Assembly (NCBI RefSeq): GCF_029873635.1
Contig: NC_080420.1
Span: 31,921,032 to 31,985,031 of the forward strand
From: Malania oleifera
Lineage: Eukaryota > Streptophyta > Magnoliopsida > Santalales > Ximeniaceae
Reading direction: 5' to 3'
Length of the DNA stretch: 64,000 bases
In this document: piece by piece, positions 3,381-61,560 of the stretch
How the letters are laid out: every line of letters begins with the position of its first letter
How positions within the stretch are numbered: the first letter of the stretch is position 1
Notes under the pieces: generated by a model
The model's database searches: none
What the model saw: only the letters and a program-made list of their open reading frames with translations
Told to the model about the DNA's origin: nothing
Translations under genes and position numbers: made by a program

Positions 3381-6200
3381 AATGTGGATCATAGGAATGC
3401 CCCTTTATCCAAGTCGTAGGACCAACCTCCTAAGAGGCCTTCTCAACTTTGGCCAAGATGAGGACTCGTCTTTCATATTTGCAAAATATTTTGACCTCAT
3501 AGTGACTTGATGGAATTTTACAAGCACCAAGTCACCTACATTGAAGTGCAACGGTCTTCTCCCTTGATTTGACCACTTTTTCATCTACTTGGAAGCTTTG
3601 TCTAGCTAGACTTGGTATCTTTTCGTTTCATCTCCATTCTTTGGTGGAGATGTACACCCTCAGACTCTTTCTATTGTACGACTTGTCCATTATCTGAGGT
3701 AATAGTGGCTTGTAGCGTGTAACAAGCTCAAAAGGACTCTTGTTGGTTGTAGAGCTTTTTTGGGTGTTGAAATAGAACTAAGACACTTCAAGTAGCTGCA
3801 CCCAATTTCTCTCATTGGTAGTGATAAGATGACGCAAGTACTTCTATTAGCTCGTTGAATCTCTGTCTGTGAGTGGTAGCTTGAAAAGATGTCAAGTTGT
3901 GAGGGGAGTTTCTTGTGAATATTGTATCTCGATTTCTGATAATGTCTAGAGGAACAACCAAATACTTAACAATGTGATTGAAAACAACTATGTTGTTTCC
4001 TATGCTGAGCAATACTACAATGTTGCTATACTCTATAATCATAAGATTCACAAGTATAGACCTTGTGTCCCCTATGCCCCCTATGACGAAGAATACTTCA
4101 ATGTTTTATACTTTATAATCACAAGATTCACAAGTATAGATCTTGTGTCCCCAACTCTGGATAGGTTGTTGATGAAGTCAAGTGTGACATTATCCTACTA
4201 TCTCATGTTGATGATGAAATCAAGTGAGACATTATCCCGCTATCTCATTGGTAGTTGAAGAGGCTTTGCTTTGTAGTCTTCTTTTGCTTGACCTTGTTTT
4301 GTTGGCAGGTGAGACTAGCTCGGGTATACTTAAGCACCTCATCATGCATGTGTGGCGATATATACTTTTGCTTCAACCAAAATTGATGCCGTTTGGGTGG
4401 CCTTCCCACATGGAGCCATGACTAGGATTGGATTTAAGAGGGGGTGATAAATTGGTCAAACACGAACCAAACCCAATTAATTAATGGGTTAGCCAGGTTC
4501 AAGTTGGGTACCTTCCGGGTCTTCCTTTTAATTACTTCAAAGTTATTGGATTCTATGTATATAAATTATGATATTTGATGCATGTTTGATGTATCGTGTG
4601 CGTGTGATAAGAATAGAGATAAGATACAAGTTGTTCGACCACATTGTTGAAACATTAAGGAGGAAAAAAATGATAAATAGGTTATAGTTGCTGTTTTTTA
4701 AATTCCATATCACTTTTCTTTTTTGAATATTAAAGAGAAAAATAATAAAAGGGTGTTGTTTTTTAATTTTAAGTCTTTAACTCACATTTGTTAACATATT
4801 AATGAAAAAAGAAATGATAAATTTAACTCTTGATGAAATATTAAAGAAAAAATTTAAAATAAAAAAATGTATATTTCTTAACGGATACCTATATATAACG
4901 CATTTATTAATTGGTTGGGTTTGGGTTTGTGGTTTACTCACCCATTTATAAACTAGTCAACTTGAATCTAACTCATTAAGTCCCACCTACCCAAACTCAG
5001 CTTGCCAGCTCATTTTGCCACCCTAGCCATGACACTAGTGACAACATCTTCCTCAGGTCATCAACTTGAGGCACAAAGAGCAGGTTGTCATTTGTAACCA
5101 TCTTGTAATCATCTATTAGCGGCAATCCATCTTGTAACAAAAACTGACACTCTTTGCCCTCTTTCGCCAACTTCATGAGGTTTTGGTACTAGTTCTTTGA
5201 CAAGGCTCTCTTTAATGCACTCTTGCATTATTGTGGTAACCTTACTTATTGTCAAGTATGTTACCAATTGTAAGACTTCAAACTTGGCCTTCCCAAGCAT
5301 CTATAGTTTGGTTCTTTTTATCAAACTCTGTTAGGGATTCTTGCCAATGGACTGGGGATAATTATGGTTGTGTAAGTAGTTGACAGCTGAGTTATCACTC
5401 TTCACCATGAACTTAGACCCCAAGTGGGTAATGCCGCTAGGCTTGTAAACAATGAATCACTGTTAGCATCTCCTTGGGCTGCAAACTTCTGCTCAAGGTC
5501 ATTGAGCTTACGGTTCTCATGCACACCAGGATGCCCATCTTGTAACAAGACTCCACTGAGGGGATAGTTTGATAGCTCAAGTGGCTTCATGATGCCTAGA
5601 AGAGCAATTGTTGAATCCTTTATCATGGCTTCCTTCATGTTGTTAAGGTCTCCCTGGCACTCTTCCATGGAGTTCCACCCATAACATTTGTTCAGCAATT
5701 TAATTAATGGGGTAGTCCTCAATTACCCAATAACAAACTCGCCATGGTAATTGGGGAGTCCAAGAAAGGAATGCAGCTCCTTAATTGTTGTTGGGATCTT
5801 CCAATGTTGAACACCTCTCACCTTCTCCATAGGCCATGTTTATCACGATACAACCCTGTTTAAGCACATGACCATGGAACTTGATACTCCTCTTATCAAA
5901 ATATCACTTCTCTTTCTTCACATACTGTTCTCTTTCACTTTTGTAGATGCTTTCCATGTTCCTCCAAGGTGAAATTATAGACAAAAATATCATCTGGGTA
6001 GGACCACAATGAACTTGTGGAGGTAGTCATGGAACATCTAATTCATTAGTGTGCAAAAAGTAGTTGGCGCATTCATATACCAAAGGGTATTGTCGAGAAT
6101 TTATATGCCCCGCGCTGCATCATGCAGGCAGTCTTCAGCTAAAATCCTATTTGTTTGGTCTGTATGACCTCCCAATTGGTCTACTCTCTTATTCATCTAG
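3381..6200 (-). mobile_element. Ty3/Gypsy remnant, Reina-like, heavily decayed
   Basis: The minus strand gives Gypsy Pol pieces in the expected order from high to low coordinates: reverse transcriptase around 6.0-6.2 kb, the RT/RNase H join around 5.4-5.75 kb ('RKLNDLEQKF' and nearby), and the end of the integrase around 3.5-3.9 kb ('FNTQKSSTTNKSPFEL'). The order and wording resemble Reina-type chromoviruses. Many breaks; no LTRs recognised. An old fossil, interrupted by a MITE at about 4.44-5.03 kb. It lies directly upstream of the DUF2232-like gene. Confidence 0.65.
4439..5031. mobile_element. Non-autonomous hAT-like MITE, copy 1
   Basis: An A/T-rich element of about 600 bp. Its right end CATTTTGCCACCCTAG is the inverse of the left end of copy 2 (TAGGGGTGGCAAAATAGG, near 9350); its own left end is diverged. 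Shared interior blocks in the same order as copy 2 include ATGATATATGATGCATG-like sequence, AGGAGGAAAAAAA and TATATTTCTTAACGGATAC. GGGGTGGCAAAA ends are typical of plant hAT MITEs. It has no coding capacity and lies within the Gypsy remnant. Confidence 0.6.
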
Positions 6201-27012: not shown

Positions 27013-28818
27013 TGTCACGCCCCGAACCAGCGGATGGGTCCCAGGTGTGATTTTAGTAACCTAACTTATCTCTGTATCATTAAAATATACATGATACTAT
27101 ACTAAATGAGGGTCCAACCATGTGGGGTAGGCGTAAACCCTATACACAATTACATACATGTCCATACACATCAAATACACAGCGAAAATGTTCTTTCTAT
27201 ACATACATCATACCATACCAGAGTCTATACATAACTAGAATATACGTTCTCAAAATACAGTACATACTCCGGGTGTCTACAAAACCCAATACTGACAACC
27301 TAGTTACAAAAACCCATACTTATACAGGTACTAAATGTAGCTAACCGACACCCACGCTTCTAGACGCTAGGATGCTAGTTTCGGCTACCTGAAAGGACCT
27401 TAAAAATATTTGTATATTCGAGGTGAGACACCTCTCAGTAAGGAAGAAAGCATGTTATATCAGTGTGTGGCATACAAGTGTTATTTTAACATAAAATATA
27501 ACACGATACAGTTCCAGTATTTTCACAATTCAGTTCCAATACATACGATACCAAATATACGGTCAGTGTCATCACACTCAAGCACACGATACCCTGTGAT
27601 AACCGAAGCCTCACAGTGATATCGTTGCTAGTACGGTGTCCACTCACACCCATCGGTGACCAGCCGAAACAAACTAGTGATATTTCACACCCTCGGATAT
27701 AAAGTCGGACGCTCTTGCCCACGGTAATTAGATGAGACATGGTGGCAGTGTACGGTAATTAGCTGCCCTTAACTACTTTACAAAACCTATAACAATTTTG
27801 GAACTCATGTTCCTATACTCATCAGCGTACGGTAATTAGCCGCCCCTAATTGTTTTACAAAACCTGGAACATTTTACATACAATAGTTCATTCCACACTT
27901 ATTTGAGCATACACAAATCATATCGTTTTCAGTTCAAGAAATATAGTTTAATATAAATACAGGTACGATCATCTCAATACTACAGTTTTATACAACATAC
28001 AATTTTCCAACAAAAATAGAAATGATACCTGAAATCCCCAATTTTCCCAAAAATCGTAACCCGAAAATCCCGCATTTTCACCTGATAGATTTTCCCAAAT
28101 AAGTGGTCAAAACATACATATGATTGTAAACTACAGGTTTACCGATCCCAATTTCAAAAATAACTGATATAAATAGAATCCCCTTACCTTTTCTCAAATA
28201 CCACAAACCCGAACTCTATGGCTCCAAAACTACGAATCGAGTTTCCAAAACCTAAACATCCAAGAACTATACTTCACTACAATTCTTACTACTACATATA
28301 TACCAAAACGAAACTGAAATTGGACCCTTACCTTAGTTTTGGGTCAAAACCGAAAATCCTCGAAATGAATTTCTGATCCGCTATAAACGTAGAGATTCCC
28401 TTCCTGATCCATGTGATAACATTGGATCGTTGATTCTGAAAATTGACGGCCTGAAATCCTAGAGAGAGAGAGAGAGAGGTTTTTAGTTTCTTAACCATTA
28501 AGCAAGTGAAAAGATATTTATAAACAAGTTGACCGGGTCAGACTTGTCAACGAGACGACATCCTTGTCGAAGGGCCGCAGAAGGAAGTTCGTTGATGCCA
28601 AGGTGGCCTCATCGATGAGCCTGAGATTTCAGGATTTCCCAAAATCTCTCGGCATCTCCCCGTTGACGAGCTACTGAATCTCGTTGCCGAACTAAACAAG
28701 AGGCTTCGTCGACAAGCAAAGAAGCCTCGTCGATAAGCCCTGCAAATTTTTGCCTTTTAAACTTTCCTTCTCTTTTCCTCACTTATTTAAGACACTTATC
28801 TAGGGTCGGGTTCTTACA
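27013..28818 (-). repeat. 3' LTR of the Gypsy element (1806 bp)
   Basis: Starts TGTCACGCCCCGAAC and ends GGGTTCTTACA. The first 585 bp or so align with 33890-34474. Confidence 0.85.
28545..28745. repeat. Degenerate phrase array, CCTCGTCGACGAGC type
   Basis: About eight imperfect copies of a CTCGTCGACGAA phrase lie near the end of the Gypsy LTR. The same phrase type is found in the Copia LTR at 58075-58285. Confidence 0.6.
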
Positions 28819-33889: not shown

Positions 33890-34474
33890 TGTCACGCCCC
33901 GAACCCGCGGATGGGTCCCATGTGTGATTTTAGTAACCTATCCTGTCTCTGTATCATTAAAACATACATAATACTATACTAAATAAGGTTCTGACCCCGT
34001 GGGGTACACGTAAACCCTATACACAATTACATACATGTCTATACACATCAAATACGGAGCAGAAATGTTCTTTCTATACATACATCATACCATACCAGAA
34101 TCTATATATAACTGGAATATACGTTCCCAAAATACAGTACATACTTCAGGTGTCTACAAAACCCAATACTGACAACATGGTTACAAAAACCCATACTTAC
34201 ACAGGTACTAAACATAGCTAATCGACACCCATGCTTCTGGACGCTAGGATGTTAGTTTTGACTACCTGAAGGACTTGAAAAACATTTGTATATTCGGGGT
34301 GAGACACCTCTCAGTAAGGAAGAAAAGATGTTATATCAGTGGGTGACATACAAGTGTTATTTCAACATAAAACATAACATGATATAGTTCCAATATTTTT
34401 ACAATTCAGTTCCAATACATACGATACCAAATATACGGTCAGTGTTGTCACACTCAAGCATACAATACCCTGCT
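33890..34474 (-). repeat. 5' LTR of the Gypsy element (partial)
   Basis: Aligns with the first third of the LTR at 27013; the match is lost at about 34474. Confidence 0.8.
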
Positions 34475-35196
34475 AGTAAATGGATGAAGATTTGATTCCC
34501 TTAGTGGATGCCTTTAATTTGGTTAACAAGATGTCTTTTAAATAAGCACTTGAAGAATAGGAATTTATGATCATTAGTGCTTAAGCCTAGAGTAATGAAT
34601 GCTACTTGTTCAAGGTTTTTAAGGATGAGTTTAGGATTAAATGATATATAGTATGAGATGGATCCCCTAAATCACAAGCTTGTGCGATGGACAATGTATG
34701 CTTAACTTAAGATGTTGATATTAAAGTATGAGTTAAGCATTTGGAAATATTTACCTAGCAATGATGCCTTGTCCACTTGGAAGTGGCTTTTATTCAATTT
34801 TTGAATTTGCTTTCTAATCTTATGATTCTTAGTATGATAATATGTATAGTGAATACATATACTAAGATTTGGAATTTTAAGCATGCACCACTTCCCGAGC
34901 CTATAGTCATCATAACCCTTAAACCTAGGCACTAAGGAAGAAACAAATAATTATGTAATATATATTAAAACCATCCTTCCTCATCTACTACTGGATTTGA
35001 TTTCATGATTACCCACATCATTTTCCTATTTAAGTCTCGGGCACTTCTAAGTAAGCAATTAAAACATACGTGCCACATTGTTTTTACAAAATAAGCAGGT
35101 ATTGGTTAGAGTAATCTTGCACACAAACTCAGGGCATAGGTTAGATACAAAGGTATTTGTCATTATCAAAATGGGACATGACTAATAGGGTCAACA
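34475..35196 (-). mobile_element. Copia LTR remnant
   Basis: The last 75 bp or so (GGGCATAGGTTAGATACAAA ... GGGTCAACA) closely match the end of the LTR at 25404-26468. The remainder is A/T-rich and not clearly alignable. It joins the Gypsy element on the left and a LINE on the right. Confidence 0.5.
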
Positions 35197-43600: not shown

Positions 43601-46600
43601 ATACCGATAAATATAATATGCGGAAATTTAAATCAAGCGCATTATTCACATAATAACATACACGTACGGTAAATATAAAGTGTGACAATATACACAAACA
43701 CACGATATGTTATCGGGGTTCGCCTAACTGTGCCTACGTCCCCGCCTCTAGCTCGCAAGTTCGAGGATTCTACTAATAGCTCACTTAAGGGTGGAGCGAC
43801 ACCGATTACAATTAGGTCAAATTAACACAGGGCTGACCTCATCCTTAACCAGGTCAATTAGTGGGACTAACCTCAACCTACACGCCTTACCAGGACGACG
43901 CACCTAGCTTTCCTAACCGGGTCAAAGCCAATCCAGGACTATTCTAGGGCTAGTCTCCCTCTTTAGGCTCGTGCCTGGAAATACAACAGTATTTAAAAAT
44001 ACAACCAGATGGTACAATGAATATGCTTTCAAGTAAAGCAGATGTGTACCCAGATACACGCAATCACATACACCACAAATGATATAATATGTAAGCTCAA
44101 TGTGGTCCAATATTTCCACTCTCAGATATATGTATTTACTATTAGTGTAATAAGTGCGTGAGAGTATCAATCAAGCAATCTTTGTATCACAAGATATTCA
44201 ATCAATAAGTTCACACAAAGATGTCAAGTCTCAAGTATTTCAATCAGCAGGATGTCTCAAGCATGTAAATATCAAATGGTGTATATGCTTGGTTTGCAAA
44301 AAATGTGTAATTTTTGTATTCAGCAAATAATATATGAGTGAGTGAATATTACAACAAAGGTCACTATCACACAAACAAATATCTTCTCAAAGTTATATCA
44401 AAATAAATACCACAAGATATTTGAAAATTTTTTGAAGAGATTTTGCAATCCACAAACAAATATGAACTTCTCAAGATATTGCAATGGATATGCAATACTC
44501 AGAAGTTTAATATAAGTCTTCTTAGGTGAGACTTATTAACAAAGTCCCTTAAGAATACTTAGGTTTAGCTCTCAAGAAAATTATACCAAGCAACTAGAGC
44601 AAGGAGAGCAAACCTATGGAAACAAACACTTAATCCACTTACTAATAATGTAGGCACTAATAGAAGGTAAGCATGAGTGAATGAAGCTAAAAAATGAATA
44701 ATATATGTTTTTGGATTATCAGAGAATTCTCCCTAATCAAGGTAGCTTATGTCATGTTAATTTTTACAAATGATCACATATATATAGACATGGGAAGAAA
44801 TATGACCGTTAGGGACTTATTAGAAATTATTGGAAAAGTTTAATAACATTTAAAACATTTTAACCCTGTTTAAAAGATATTTAATCGCGGTAAAAATCAG
44901 GGCAACCCGAGAGGTCTAGTCGACCAGAAAGGTTTTGGTCGACCAGATCTCATATGGTTTGGTCGACAAGGAGTATTTTGAACTAAAGGCTCGGTCGACC
45001 GAAAGTGGGCGATTTCCCATTTCTCCGAGGTTCGATCAACTAGGCCATTTTGAACAGGCAAGTTCGGTCGACCAGACCGTTGGAATTTTTCCCGAGGACC
45101 CTCGATCGATTAGGTAGTTGGAGTACAAAAATGGCTCGGTCGACCAGATGGTCAAATTGTTAACCAGAGAGGGTTTCAGTCGACCAGGAGTTTTGAACTA
45201 TACTGGTTTGGTCGACCAGATGGTCAAACATTGACCTCAGGGGGTTTCGGTCGACCAAGGGATTTGAACTACTTTGGTTCGGTCGATCAGGACCTTGGTC
45301 AACTGTTGACCCAGACCTATTTCGGTCGACCGGGGCAGAATGAACTGCCTTGGTTAGTCGACCGAAAGTGCACAATGTGTGCATTTCGGTCTTATTTTGA
45401 AGCACACAAATCCTATTTAAGTGCTTAACAAGTATAGGTGCAATGGTGTGTGTTCCAGGGTTATTTTTGTCCAAAATTAAAGATACCAAAAAAGTCCGGT
45501 GTCGGTCGACCGAAACCCTAAGGTCATTCTAAGGTCATTTTGGGTTATGCTTGATTTGAGCTTACACAATACATCATGCTGATGATGCATGCAATTATTA
45601 CAAATTATAAGCCCTAATTACTATTACAGACCAATTACACAAATGAATTATATATTTACAACACAAAGTAATTGGGTCTTCAATCTTTACTTGCTCTTTG
45701 TGCATTGAGATCTGTCAATTTGAGTTCCTGCACATAATCTCAAACACCATTAGATATAACAGGTATTTGTCATTATCAAAACTGGGCGCGACCTATAAGG
45801 TCAACATTTTCTTTGGGATATAGTGTGGTATTTGGCTTCCCTTGTCTGATGGGATTTATTTGTGTCAAAGAAACCATGTTTCCTGTTTGCGTTTTTTTTT
45901 TTGGTATGTGTGTGGTTGTTTATGTTTAGGGGGTTTTGATTATGAGAATTGAGGAAGGGGAACGAAGGGTGACTTATGGGCTTCAACATTTTTATTTTTC
46001 AGAATTTGGTTGATTTTACTTTTCAGAATTTATCTTTTTGAAGTAGAGTCGTATCATGTGCAGTCTCCAGAATATATTTCTTTGACCCATGTTACTATGA
46101 CAAATTTCTGCATTGGCAATAAGGATTTCTGTTGCAATAATCGTTAGATTTACGGTTAAATTCAGATTTGACACAAAAAATGAATTTCTTTCAGTTTAAG
46201 TTCTCATCTGAACCCTTTTAAACTTGGAGCCTGAGTTGTTTCATTTGAAGATTGTAAAATGGTTACTGGTAAAACTCATTAAAAATAAAACATGTGGGAA
46301 GGCTCTAGAAAATTCTCTTACAATTTGGTTTATGGTTTGAAAAAATAACATGATTATACATTCTCATATAAAAAATATTATTGTTCATTTCTTTATTTCC
46401 TCTTTGAAGAAAGTTTTTGGCTTTGCCACAGTATCAAGTCATTGCAGTCTCACAAGTATATAGTTTGGAATTTTTGATGTGTTGGTTCAGTAGTCTCTTG
46501 TCCAGCTTTTGAACAGCCCTTGTAGTTTTTAGGTTTCAATTTCCCTTCAGGATTGCTTACTGTTTTAATTATTTTATGATGAGCTTTCCTCAAAATGTGT

Positions 46601-57695: not shown

Positions 57696-59636
57696 TGTTA
57701 ACTCTATGAGTCAAATCCTGTTTTGATAATGACAAATCACTTGATATTTGACCTATGCAATTGAGTTTGTAAACAGGACCATGATTTAGAATCCACGAAT
57801 GGTAAACTTGTATGGAAGCCACAAGAAACCTAAAGAACATATCACTTGGCGCAATCTATGGAACTAGAGGAATGAAAGGATGATGAAGCAAACTTTAAGT
57901 TCAAGATCTTCAATGGAATGGGTATTTAGAATTGAATATATTTACATATATCATATGATATAACTCGAAGCTTAAACAATTCCCTAGACAGACCTTAGGA
58001 CTCATGCATTTCATGGATGATACATTTACAGTAGCTCTAGGTTGAATAAATTTTTCGAGGCAAATTTAAGAGGCCTCGTTGACGAACCCAATGGTCTCAT
58101 CGACGAATGTATAAAGGCCACTCGGTGATGAACAGTGTTGTCTCGTCAACGAAAAAATACCAAGAGCCTAAAATGTTTAGATAGTGCTCTTGTCGACGAA
58201 CTCATGGCCTCATTGACGAACGAGTGTTATACACTCGTCAACGAACTTACCCATTCGTCGACAAAGGTCGAGACGCTGATTCACGTTTCGGCATGGACAC
58301 AAATGAAAACTCTTGTTTTTAAATGATCCAATGGGCAGGATTTAATCTAGGGTCGAGAACACTTATAAAAACGATCTCTAAACCCTAGAGCACCACTTTT
58401 TGCCTATCTTTTGAGAACCTTTAGCATATTGCATCAATCTTGGGCATACCTTTGGGAAGTTTGAACATATTTGTAAGAATCGTTGCCCTGCACTTCAAGA
58501 AGTCACCGTGTCCTCACAGGGCATTCACATATTCAAGATCCAAACAAATACACGTACAAAACTTCTGCTACATTGATTGAATTTGAGGCTCGAGAAAATA
58601 TTTATTAAGCTTTCAATTTTTTATTCAGTCGAGTCATCTTCTCATTATTCGTTTATCGCAAAATCATTTTTGGAGCAAGAAACTTATTTTCCCATAGTTA
58701 ATTATTTGAAAAATCTTTTGGGAATAGTATTCTAAAGTTTGAATCCTTGTGATATTCAAAGCTATATTTTTATCCAAAGAGACCTATCTTATTGGTGTAA
58801 AAAGTATTTGAAAAATATTGTTTAAATCTTTGAAATATTCAAAGTCTTATTTTTATTCAAAGATTTAATCTTATGAGTTATTTGACAGCAAGAACTTAGA
58901 TTTGCATAATATTCAAGTTTTTTTTTTAAGGATCTTATTTTGGTATTCTTGCATAAAGTGATTTGAAATCAAACCCTAAGTTCTCCAAAACATTTATTTA
59001 TAAAAATTATTTTTGGGAGATATTGAGTAAAGAGTAGATTTGTGAAGCATATCGTTCTTCTTATAAAGATCATATTATTACATACATACTGAGCTTCAAA
59101 TATTTATCATATGATTATGTGTTAGGATTTATCTTGTACTCACTAGCTTGATTAGAAGCACTTTTGAGTTGCAGAAATTGTAATATTTATTTTGTATACA
59201 TGGTTCGGTTTGTGAACCGAGATTGAGGAGAAAGTTACGTCTCTTGTAAGAAGCAGGTTGTGAGGGAAGCTCATTTCCAATTAAAGGAGCGGATTTTTAG
59301 TGGAATCCTTGAGTAGATTGCTCAAGGCAAGGACGTAGGCTGGGGTAGGCCGAACCTCGTAAAAATCGTGTGTCTTCTCTCTTCCCTTAACTCTTTTTTA
59401 TTTCTGCTTACATTTAAATTATATGTTTATTGTGTATAACATGAACATTTGATAAGTTTGTGTGTAATTGGGTAAAATTGTATACTTGATAAACACACAC
59501 ATTAAATTGATTAATTGTGAAACATTAAGTTAGGTATTAAGTAGATTGCAAGCTTGTAATTGATAGTTTGCAAAATTAGAAATTAAAGGACCTATTTTTG
59601 AAAATACCCAATTCACCCCCCTCTTGGGATAACACA
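57696..59636 (+). repeat. 5' LTR (about 1.94 kb)
   Basis: Starts TGTTAACTCTATGAGTCAAA and ends CCTCTTGGGATAACACA. These ends and the 'GGATTTTTAGTGGAATCC...GACGTAGGC' block near 59290-59340 correspond, in reverse, to the LTRs at 10958 and 43480. Confidence 0.7.
58075..58285. repeat. Degenerate phrase array, CTCGTCGACGAA type
   Basis: About ten imperfect copies of CTCGTCGACGAA (also CATTGACGAAC and CGTCAACGAA) lie within 210 bp of this LTR. It is the same phrase type as in the Gypsy LTR at 28545-28745. Confidence 0.65.
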
Positions 59637-61065
59637 GTAATTCACACTTTGTATTAGAGCTGGTTTACATAGACTTAACCTTTATTTTTGTAAAAGATCA
59701 AAATGGCACACACCGGTGTAACCCTATTTGGTGAGGGACACTCGTCTACTAGACCACCAATTTTTTGTGATGTAAATTATACCTACTGGAAACGAAAGAT
59801 GAGTATATATTTTTTAACTGTTGATTGGAAAGTGTGGAGAATAATTTCTAAGGGAAATCATGTTCCTGTGAAATTAGTTTATAAAGTTAATGTACCAAAG
59901 ACAAAATATAAGTACACTGATGATGATTGGAAATCTGTTCAAATAAATGTTACTGTTATAAATCTTCTATTTTGTGCACTAGACGTTAATGAGTTTAATA
60001 GGGTAATGACTTATAAAACTGCTAAGAAAATAAGAAAAAAATTACAAGTAACATATGAAGGCACTAATTAAGGAAGTAAAAGATAGTAAGATAGATATGG
60101 CTGGACTAGTGAAATGAAAATAAAAAACCTTTGAAATGACTGTGTGATGAGTCTATTCATCCATGTGACAGATTCACTACATCACGGAATTCATTAAATA
60201 CTCTTGGCAAATCTTACCCTACTTATGAGTTGATTAGGAAAATCCTTAGGGGACTACCGCCAGTATGGGAAGCTAAAGCTACTGCTATAACCGAAGGAAG
60301 GAATCTGAAATAGATGTCAGTTAATGAATTGATCGAACTGCTCATCACTGCTAGCGATAAATGAGAGGAAAAAAAGCCGAATAAATCAAAGAGAGTTACA
60401 ACTCTTAAGACACCATCTAGTAGCTCTAGTGAAGGAAATGACTTAGAATCAGAAGATGACATGACTTTTCTAACAAGGAAGTTTGGAAAGTTCTTGAACA
60501 AGAATAGGAAGTTTAACAAAAAATTTCGGACCTCGAAATCAAAAAGTGGAAAGTCTAGCAAGAGGAGGCAAAAGGATGATCTTCCTACATGCTATAACTG
60601 TAGAGAAGTTGAGCATAAGAAGCCAGATTGTCCCCAGTTGAAGAAAGTGTCCAAGAAGAAGAAGAAGACACTAAAGATTGATTAGGATACTCATAGTACT
60701 AGTAGTTCAGAATCTGAATCTAGTGATAACCAGATTGCAAATCTGTGTCTGATGGCTCACGAAAACTACGAGGTACAATCTTTTTGCTTTGATTCATCTT
60801 ATTATTCCAGTGATTTTGAAAATGAAAATAACATGCTTTCTTATGATGAATTGCAACAATAATATTTGAACACTCTTAAAATGTTTGAGAAGAAAATTAA
60901 GAAAATTTTTGATTTGAAATGTAAAGTAAATGAACGATTTTTGAAAAATAGAATGAGTCTCGTGCATACGTGATAAAAGAAAATAATTTAAAAATGGAGG
61001 AATTAAAAAGAAGTTTGAAAGAAAATTCTAAAATTATTTATAAATTCAGAATAACTTTGAAAGAC

Positions 61066-61560
61066 TTCTTGGGGCAAGAGAGCTGTCAGAGAGATCGGCG
61101 GCGAGGCGTGGTCGCGACAGCGATGGCATGGTCGCGACAGCAATGGTAGCGATCTGGTGGTCTGCTATGGCAATATCAGTGCCGGCGAGGAGAGACGACT
61201 CCGTGCTGTTTTCCGGGAGATTATGAAGCTGGAGGCAAGGGAGTCGGGGATGCGGCGCTGGAAAAATATTAGGGCTTTGGGGAGGGAAAAAAAAAATTCT
61301 TGTGCAGGGTGTCTGTTGTTGCCAGTAGAAGGGCTGGCGGCGTCGTCGTTTGGACGAGGGTTGGTAGTTTCTTCGCCATCGTCTTGTGGTTCCTTCGTCG
61401 GTGCTGCGGTAGCGGAGCTGGTGGTGAACAGATTCACCGAATAATTGGAGCAGAGATCCTACGAATCTTTCTCCGATAACCATGTTAAATCTGTAATGAT
61501 TTATTTTCTCTGACTTTCTAATCCGTAACACAAATATCACTGAGCTATCCTTCCTAAATC
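61066..61560. other. GC-rich insert with a primer-site-like end
   Basis: An abrupt change to GC-rich sequence after the Copia Gag. Near 61478-61492 the minus strand reads ACATGGTTATCGGAGAAAG, close to the TGGTATCAGAG primer site. The block may thus be the leader of another LTR element on the minus strand, with its LTR to the right. Open frames on both strands are not assignable. Confidence 0.35.

Follow-up and report, generated by a model that had tools for sequence, protein, structure and literature searches.

A single U3 module, composed of eight TCGTCGACGA boxes in an ordered spacing around a polar TACCGAGAG motif and lying upstream of the TATA box, occurs in many Gypsy-type LTRs and in one Copia family of the Sirevirus type. 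This was observed in a stretch of 64,000 nucleotides of Malania oleifera DNA (the window) and in further stretches of the same genome (labelled L001 to L042). The best overall explanation, held with slightly better than even confidence, is that an enhancer-like module born in Gypsy LTRs entered this one Sirevirus family.

Box arrays in the window and across the genome

The repeated unit is a perfect 10-bp palindrome, TCGTCGACGA, which contains three CpGs. The initial annotation had reported phrase arrays common to a Gypsy and a Copia LTR of the window (Table 1), and this was confirmed by box counting: 7 CpG-tolerant boxes were found in the window Copia LTR (500 shuffles: mean 0.29, maximum 2) and 6 in the window Gypsy LTR (500 shuffles: mean 0.27, maximum 3). 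The window lacks an exact CTCGTCGACGAR; six matches with one mismatch were found, one in the Gypsy array and five in the Copia array, against a mean of 0.03 and a maximum of 1 in 100 dinucleotide shuffles. Box counts being far above those of the shuffled sequences, the chance similarity that the annotation had named as a possible refutation is excluded. Its LTR borders and superfamilies were also read correctly, with the corrections that the Gypsy LTR runs on the minus strand and that its array has the limits given in Table 1. The words it quoted are mostly CpG-decay forms of TCGTCGACGA, and the exact phrase it proposed, CTCGTCGACGA(A/G), is absent from the window.

Table 1 Positions of the LTR features and of the associated sequence elements in the window.
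Feature	Position	Strand	Basis or remark
Third Sirevirus-type Copia LTR, CGGGCGACCG-like boxes	26468 (start) to ~25400 (approximate)	minus	AGGGGGAG 10 bp before start
Ty3/Gypsy 3'LTR (TG...CA)	27013-28818	minus	LTR ends and purine tract
TATA-box region TTTATAAATATC, window Gypsy; TATA 21 bp past last box	28513-28524	minus	Consensus match only
Decayed TCGTCGACGA box array, U3 of window Gypsy LTR	28543-28737	minus	
Central motif TGCCGAGAG, window Gypsy, one change from TACCGAGAG, 5 bp past preceding box	28646-28654	minus	
Other Sirevirus-type Copia LTR, type II boxes GGTCGACC	45806 (start) to 44301 (reading stop, not LTR end)	minus	
Copia 5'LTR (TG...CA), Sirevirus type	57696-59646	plus	Primer-binding site adjoins
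Eight-box array, U3 of window Copia LTR, spacing 21,25,21,47,20,25,20	58075-58265	plus	
Central motif TACCAAGAG, window Copia, 5 bp past box four	58158-58166	plus	
TATA-box region CTTATAAAAAC, window Copia; TATA 99 bp past last box	58362-58372	plus	Consensus match only
Primer-binding site CTTTGTATTAGAGC, window Copia	59647-59660	plus	
Copia-type gag fragment	59694-60068	plus	PF14223, 9.4e-4, below curated cutoff

Changes of CG to TG or CA account for 80 of the 94 departures in the Copia boxes and for 89 of the 104 in the boxes of the other arrays, shares that are somewhat inflated because the box finder charges such changes half. The CpG observed/expected ratio is 1.1-1.6 in the four arrays tested as against 0.56-0.96 in the rest of the same LTRs.

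Across the whole genome, the intact 12-mer CTCGTCGACGAG is matched 56,957 times on the plus strand and 56,624 times on the minus strand (reversed control: 112 and 101). Because CTCGTCGACGAG reads identically on both strands, these counts share sites, and the total falls somewhere from 56,957 to 113,581. Box pairs 14-44 bp apart, larger spacings falling outside the search pattern, number 25,387 with none in the control. The 100 places listed for this pattern consist of 97 plus-strand pairs and 3 repeats of a pair on the other strand, and the spacings of all 97 are 19-21, 24-26 or 43-44 bp. A lone exact CTCGTCGACGAG at 1501-1512 of L008 stands outside any array, inside a reading frame that resembles a Gypsy pol fragment; some genomic matches are therefore no LTR boxes.

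In the interior of the window Gypsy element, an RNaseH domain (PF17917, 5.6e-32) was recovered by domain profile search. The second LTR of this element could be aligned over 583 bp only (33890-34472; 90.4% identity over 584 aligned columns), and no second array of the element was found in the window. Near this other LTR, a Sirevirus-like LTR starts at 35196 on the minus strand. A GA/CT microsatellite downstream of the TATA box was seen in many array-bearing Gypsy-type LTRs; by eye it lies shortly 3' of the TATA region in L001, L002, L004, L006, L013, L027 and the window (28461-28478).

The census of the stretches, which left out L005 and L007 (overlapping L004 and L006) and L029 (repeating the window), yielded 27 arrays with four or more boxes, eight of which are those of the Copia family, in the window copy and in seven relatives retrieved as such. 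Fifteen of the 19 arrays outside this family reside in Gypsy-type LTRs, namely those of the window, L001, L002, L003, L004, L006, L013, L020 (4789), L027, L037, L038, L039 and L040 and two in L042; the other four, to which no superfamily was assigned, are those of L015, L041 and two in L020. None of the 19 could be shown to be another Copia. Gypsy pol domains support the assignment in the window and L004 (PF17917), L027 (PF00078) and L002 (PF24626), while the remaining carriers were assigned by LTR similarity; two pieces that read like Gypsy integrase had no Pfam match. The loci were chosen by position (L001-L008 being the first places listed on C1 and L009-L028 spread positions set by hand) or, for six of them, by hand from the pair list, and therefore do not sample the genome at random. 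Nor do all LTRs carry the array: upstream of 17 primer-site-like matches, taken from the window and L009-L028, a stretch of up to 2.6 kb (under 1.4 kb for several) contains no more than one box in 14 cases and six or more boxes in three, all of them in L020.

Two apparent exceptions were considered and rejected. L006 might be taken for a Copia element with a Gypsy LTR, but its Gypsy-type LTR directly adjoins a Copia gag of opposite sense; the arrangement was interpreted as a nested insertion, and L006 was therefore left out of the Copia count. This nested insertion, at about 1789, is of a kind that could bring both superfamilies together. L024 might be taken for a Gypsy LTR with type II boxes, but its ends suggest a Sirevirus LTR just inside the end of a Gypsy-type LTR. 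In L015, a variant array (3971-4116) has TCGTCGACTAG boxes and a different central gap, and is possibly an intermediate or another box type.

Spacing order and polar central motif of the arrays

In promoter orientation, the fuller arrays consist of four boxes, a central motif and four more boxes, some arrays being incomplete at the box threshold used. The order of spacings seen in the window Copia LTR recurs in L013, a Gypsy-type array with two extra boxes upstream (20,24,20,46,20,24,20), as well as in L001 (21,25,19,47,19,24,21) and L002 (21,24,21,51,20,24,20). When the L013 spacings were permuted, only 0.95% of the permutations fitted the Copia order equally well.

The central motif TACCGAGAG, or a form one or two bases off, lies exactly 5 bp past the preceding box in 7 of 8 Copia rows and in 10 of 12 other rows, the latter comprising nine Gypsy-type rows and three without a superfamily call (two in L020, and L015). 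It sits on the strand leading to the TATA box in both sets, and is exactly TACCGAGAG in the Copia relatives L032 and L034. The offset differs in L030 (Copia, 7), L004 (2) and L015 (23). As the motif had first been chosen by eye from Copia and other arrays, the seven later-fetched arrays of L037-L042 were examined: mismatches at +5, for the best gap and strand, were 5 (L037), 0, 2, 1, 3, 2 and 0, so that six of the seven have at most 3 mismatches in 9 and L037 does not fit. L015 has 7 mismatches at +5 on both strands in the same test.

The likeness was further measured independently of any motif, as the longest run of bases that the central gap of a Copia array has in common, at the same offset, with any of 11 rows labelled Gypsy. 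In the five of eight Copia copies covered, the run was 12 bases in L034 and in L032 (0 of 5000 shuffles each) and 11 in L036 (1 of 5000); the window copy gave a weak result (8 bases, 58 of 5000) and L030 an unremarkable one (6 bases, 594 of 5000). Genome-wide, AATACCGAGAG has 4,310 and 4,320 matches (control: 165 and 185), and at least 7 of the 23 matches listed on C1 below 3 Mb stand at this exact offset from a listed box. In 10 of the 11 rows labelled Gypsy, a TATA box stands 9-21 bp past the last box; none was found in L004.

The Copia carriers and their Sirevirus kin

A genome search with the Copia LTR (query of 1,956 bases) returned 50 matches from 40 scored candidates. Of these matches, 33 cover 1,700 or more of the query bases, and their identity, the window itself aside, is 83-87%. 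The array was present in all eight family copies read, with the TATA box 99 bp downstream of it in each; in seven it lies 349-368 bp past the LTR-start motif, which was not found in L033. A CpG-degenerate 27-mer specific to the family has 75 and 64 genome matches and none in the control. The array is fixed in this Copia family as far as copies were read. The gag domain that is weak in the window is strong in its relatives (PF14223 by domain profile search: 1.2e-13 in L032 and 2e-9 in L031). The primer-binding site reads TTTGGTATCAGAG(C) in L031 and L032, and going by the published Sirevirus site it is probably of the initiator-Met type. A short tandem repeat with a 20-bp unit containing GTCGCGAC was seen 3' of the gag fragment, at 61101-61146.

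Sireviruses are recognised by a purine tract, an AT/TG attachment site, a flanking inverted repeat and a polyC-rich signal at the LTR 3' end, according to the available part of Bousios et al. (2010, PMC2829016). Upstream of its LTR, L036 has five exact AGGGGGAG purine tracts, of which the last begins 10 bp from the LTR and is followed by AT/TG, and an inverted repeat around the purine tract can be discerned by eye (left arm TATCATCATCAAAA, LTR arm TTTTGATAATGACA); L032 has one-mismatch AGGGGGAG copies only. A C-rich signal, CACCCCCCTCTTGGGAT, was likewise noted by eye at 59614-59630, near the 3' end of the window Copia LTR. The junction of 5'LTR and primer-binding site in L031 and L032, CA/TTTGG followed by TATCAGAG(C), is one base off the published CA/ATTGG followed by TATCAGAGC. 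By most of the criteria tested, the Copia family of 57696-59646 is a Sirevirus.

Sirevirus LTRs have been described as carrying repeated-motif (RM) boxes, which are palindromic, high in copy, clustered in the upper half of the LTR upstream of the TATA box and form CpG islands (Bousios et al. 2010, PMC2829016). In the portion of that paper available to us, RM boxes are delimited by at least eight palindromic copies, a start 200-400 bp into the LTR and a place upstream of the TATA box; they bear a CGG-CCG signature, with Tnd-1 as the listed exception, and are called Sirevirus-specific, the elements analysed being Ty1/copia. The window Copia array has eight boxes, starts 381 bp into the LTR and precedes the TATA box by 99 bp, in agreement with the copy number, start and position of RM boxes. 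It departs from them in that its boxes are TCGTCGACGA, devoid of the CGG-CCG signature, and the restriction to Sireviruses does not hold for boxes of which 15 of the 19 arrays outside the family lie in Gypsy-type LTRs.

The other Sireviruses read in this genome were found to carry other boxes in the same LTR region, with different sequence mid-array by eye. The window LTR starting at 45806 is dense in GGTCGACC boxes (10 within 400 bp, spacings mostly 32 and 39-43 bp), as is a Sirevirus-type LTR of L024 from 7946. These type II boxes equal the Vitis Sirevirus RM CGGTCGACCG given in the part of PMC2829016 at hand, and have 37,462 sites in the genome (reversed control: 256); of the 18 type II pairs listed genome-wide, 14 are spaced at 32-33 or 38-42 bp and 4 at 19-24 bp. 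Copia-side LTRs of the window (26468), L022, L025 and L019 show further variants, CGGGCGACCG-like and CAGGCGACTG- or AGCCGACTGA-like; box sequence therefore seems to diversify by family. The Copia family can thus be described as a Sirevirus in which a Gypsy-type array takes the place of the boxes that the kin read here have of their own.

Origin, possible function and meaning of the shared module

Sister Sireviruses differ in their boxes, while the Copia family matches the Gypsy arrays in box, spacing, motif, offset and polarity. The initial annotation had left a choice between exchange of an LTR module and convergence, to be settled by whether the arrays align beyond the phrase itself. Spacing order and central motif do align, and this agreement, together with that of offset and polarity, favours exchange or common ancestry of the module. 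The spacers, in turn, lie near background: their likeness between Copia and group A (seven arrays) is 0.332 against a null of 0.292, with 51 of 500 coherent permutations as high, and between Copia and group B (four arrays) 0.362 against 0.286, with 5 of 500 as high, each group including one array without a superfamily call. In the stretch past the central motif, Copia and group A agree at 0.20, below the null of 0.28. As the likeness between groups A and B is itself only 0.389 (simple-shuffle null 0.291), spacers are close to saturation among the Gypsy arrays as well and therefore cannot decide between exchange and convergence. BLAST of the Copia LTR and gag region returned related Copia-type sequence and no Gypsy LTR homology outside the array, and no exchange breakpoint was found. 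With spacer likeness weak and neither outside homology nor a breakpoint, exchange is therefore favoured and not proven; on comparison of the arrays, we rate passage of the module between the superfamilies by exchange at an even chance or marginally above it.

In such an exchange, the module would have originated in Gypsy LTRs and been carried into the Sirevirus family by an old event of recombination or template switching, to the same part of the LTR that holds the palindromic boxes of other Sireviruses. Template switching is reported to make complex LTR elements in Triticeae, with two elements sharing one LTR (PMC1950507, as far as available), which might be a way in which segments of different LTR elements become joined; in the same available part, the Triticeae case is unlike a small promoter module crossing superfamilies. 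It is in our judgement evenly balanced whether the complete module crossed from Gypsy to Copia/Sirevirus in one plant lineage and still worked, with both superfamilies, in thousands of LTRs, depending on one host DNA-binding factor.

Alternatively, a Sirevirus could have turned its own palindromes into TCGTCGACGA and arrived at the same layout because the same host factors require it. Palindromic box arrays already occupy this LTR region in Sireviruses (PMC2829016, available part), the spacers are close to background, and the persistence of boxes, spacing and motif among Gypsy arrays despite eroded spacers suggests that the layout is under strong constraint; the 4 of 18 type II pairs at 19-24 bp further indicate that type II arrays are not wholly foreign to the spacing. 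Such convergence would nonetheless require the joint appearance of eight boxes, seven spacings and a polar motif independent of them, whereas the other 14 type II pairs are spaced differently and sister arrays differ mid-array by eye, and we consider it unlikely, if well short of negligible. The same spacing and motif devoid of LTR homology would also result had Gypsy and Sirevirus LTRs each taken the module from a host promoter or satellite. The preponderance of Gypsy-type LTRs among the carriers outside the Copia family (15 of 19) speaks against such independent capture, and no host source was seen in passing in the less than 0.1% of the genome read; we regard it as improbable. Chance likeness is rejected by the shuffle tests and the reversed-pattern control. 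The annotation had further allowed that one array might be an inserted piece of the other element, and nested insertions do occur here, L006 having a Gypsy-type LTR beside a Copia gag. As a recent event this is excluded by the TATA box standing 99 bp past the array in all eight Copia copies, and 33 of the 50 LTR matches are near full-length. Chance and recent insertion of one LTR into the other are together given practically no weight.

With its location in U3, its fixed spacing and its palindromic boxes, the module would seem to be a promoter-proximal, enhancer-like U3 element bound by a dimeric host factor. A host DNA-binding protein, probably dimeric given the perfect palindromy of each box, would bind the boxes on their fixed spacing, and a second factor would bind at the central motif; together they would switch the LTR promoter on. 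The palindromes might instead act as RNA hairpins or as targets of small RNA or methylation and not as protein-binding sites. RNA of the arrays folds better than shuffles (z of -3.84 for the window Copia array, -4.33 for L013 and -4.11 for the window Gypsy array), hotspots of small-RNA mapping coincide with the palindromes of Sirevirus LTRs in maize according to the available part of PMC5311732, and the four arrays tested exceed the rest of their LTRs in CpG observed/expected ratio. A palindrome array is, however, expected to fold well whatever its role, and the quantised spacing and the site upstream of the TATA box point to proteins on DNA, which makes a purely RNA- or methylation-based role rather doubtful. 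In view of the better-than-shuffle folding and the maize hotspots, a silencing role may coexist with protein binding.

Repeated short cis elements are known to drive the promoter in the LTRs of tobacco Tnt1 and Tto1, and compared with the present module these activator boxes are few in copy, different in sequence and confined to single families. Box I of Tnt1 is named in PMC2829016 (available part). As far as the accessible text of that paper goes, the TCGTCGACGA boxes differ from the Sirevirus RM boxes in the missing CGG-CCG signature, in a fixed spacing of four boxes, motif and four boxes that its account does not describe, and in residing mostly in Gypsy-type LTRs when RM boxes are called Sirevirus-specific. 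The maize Sirevirus palindromes (Bousios et al. 2016, cited in PMC5311732) likewise lie in the cis-regulatory part of the LTR, and the portion of PMC5311732 available treats them in Copia families and mentions no shared Gypsy module. No paper was found with TCGTCGACGA and "retrotransposon" together, which is weak evidence, most subscription papers and preprints being beyond reach; among the matches listed, searches with TCGTCGACGA alone gave no retrotransposon title, and searches on shared or exchanged LTR motifs gave nothing on point beyond PMC2829016.

Overall, palindromic LTR boxes are known as a Sirevirus feature, and here a form with a rigid layout is found mostly in Gypsy-type LTRs, plus one Sirevirus family. 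If exchange is true, retrotransposon promoters evolve partly by swaps of modules between superfamilies; if convergence is true, one host factor imposed a common eight-site layout on elements that are only distantly related. On either reading, one genome would hold more than 50,000 intact sites for a host protein, and the boxes could serve as bait to find it.
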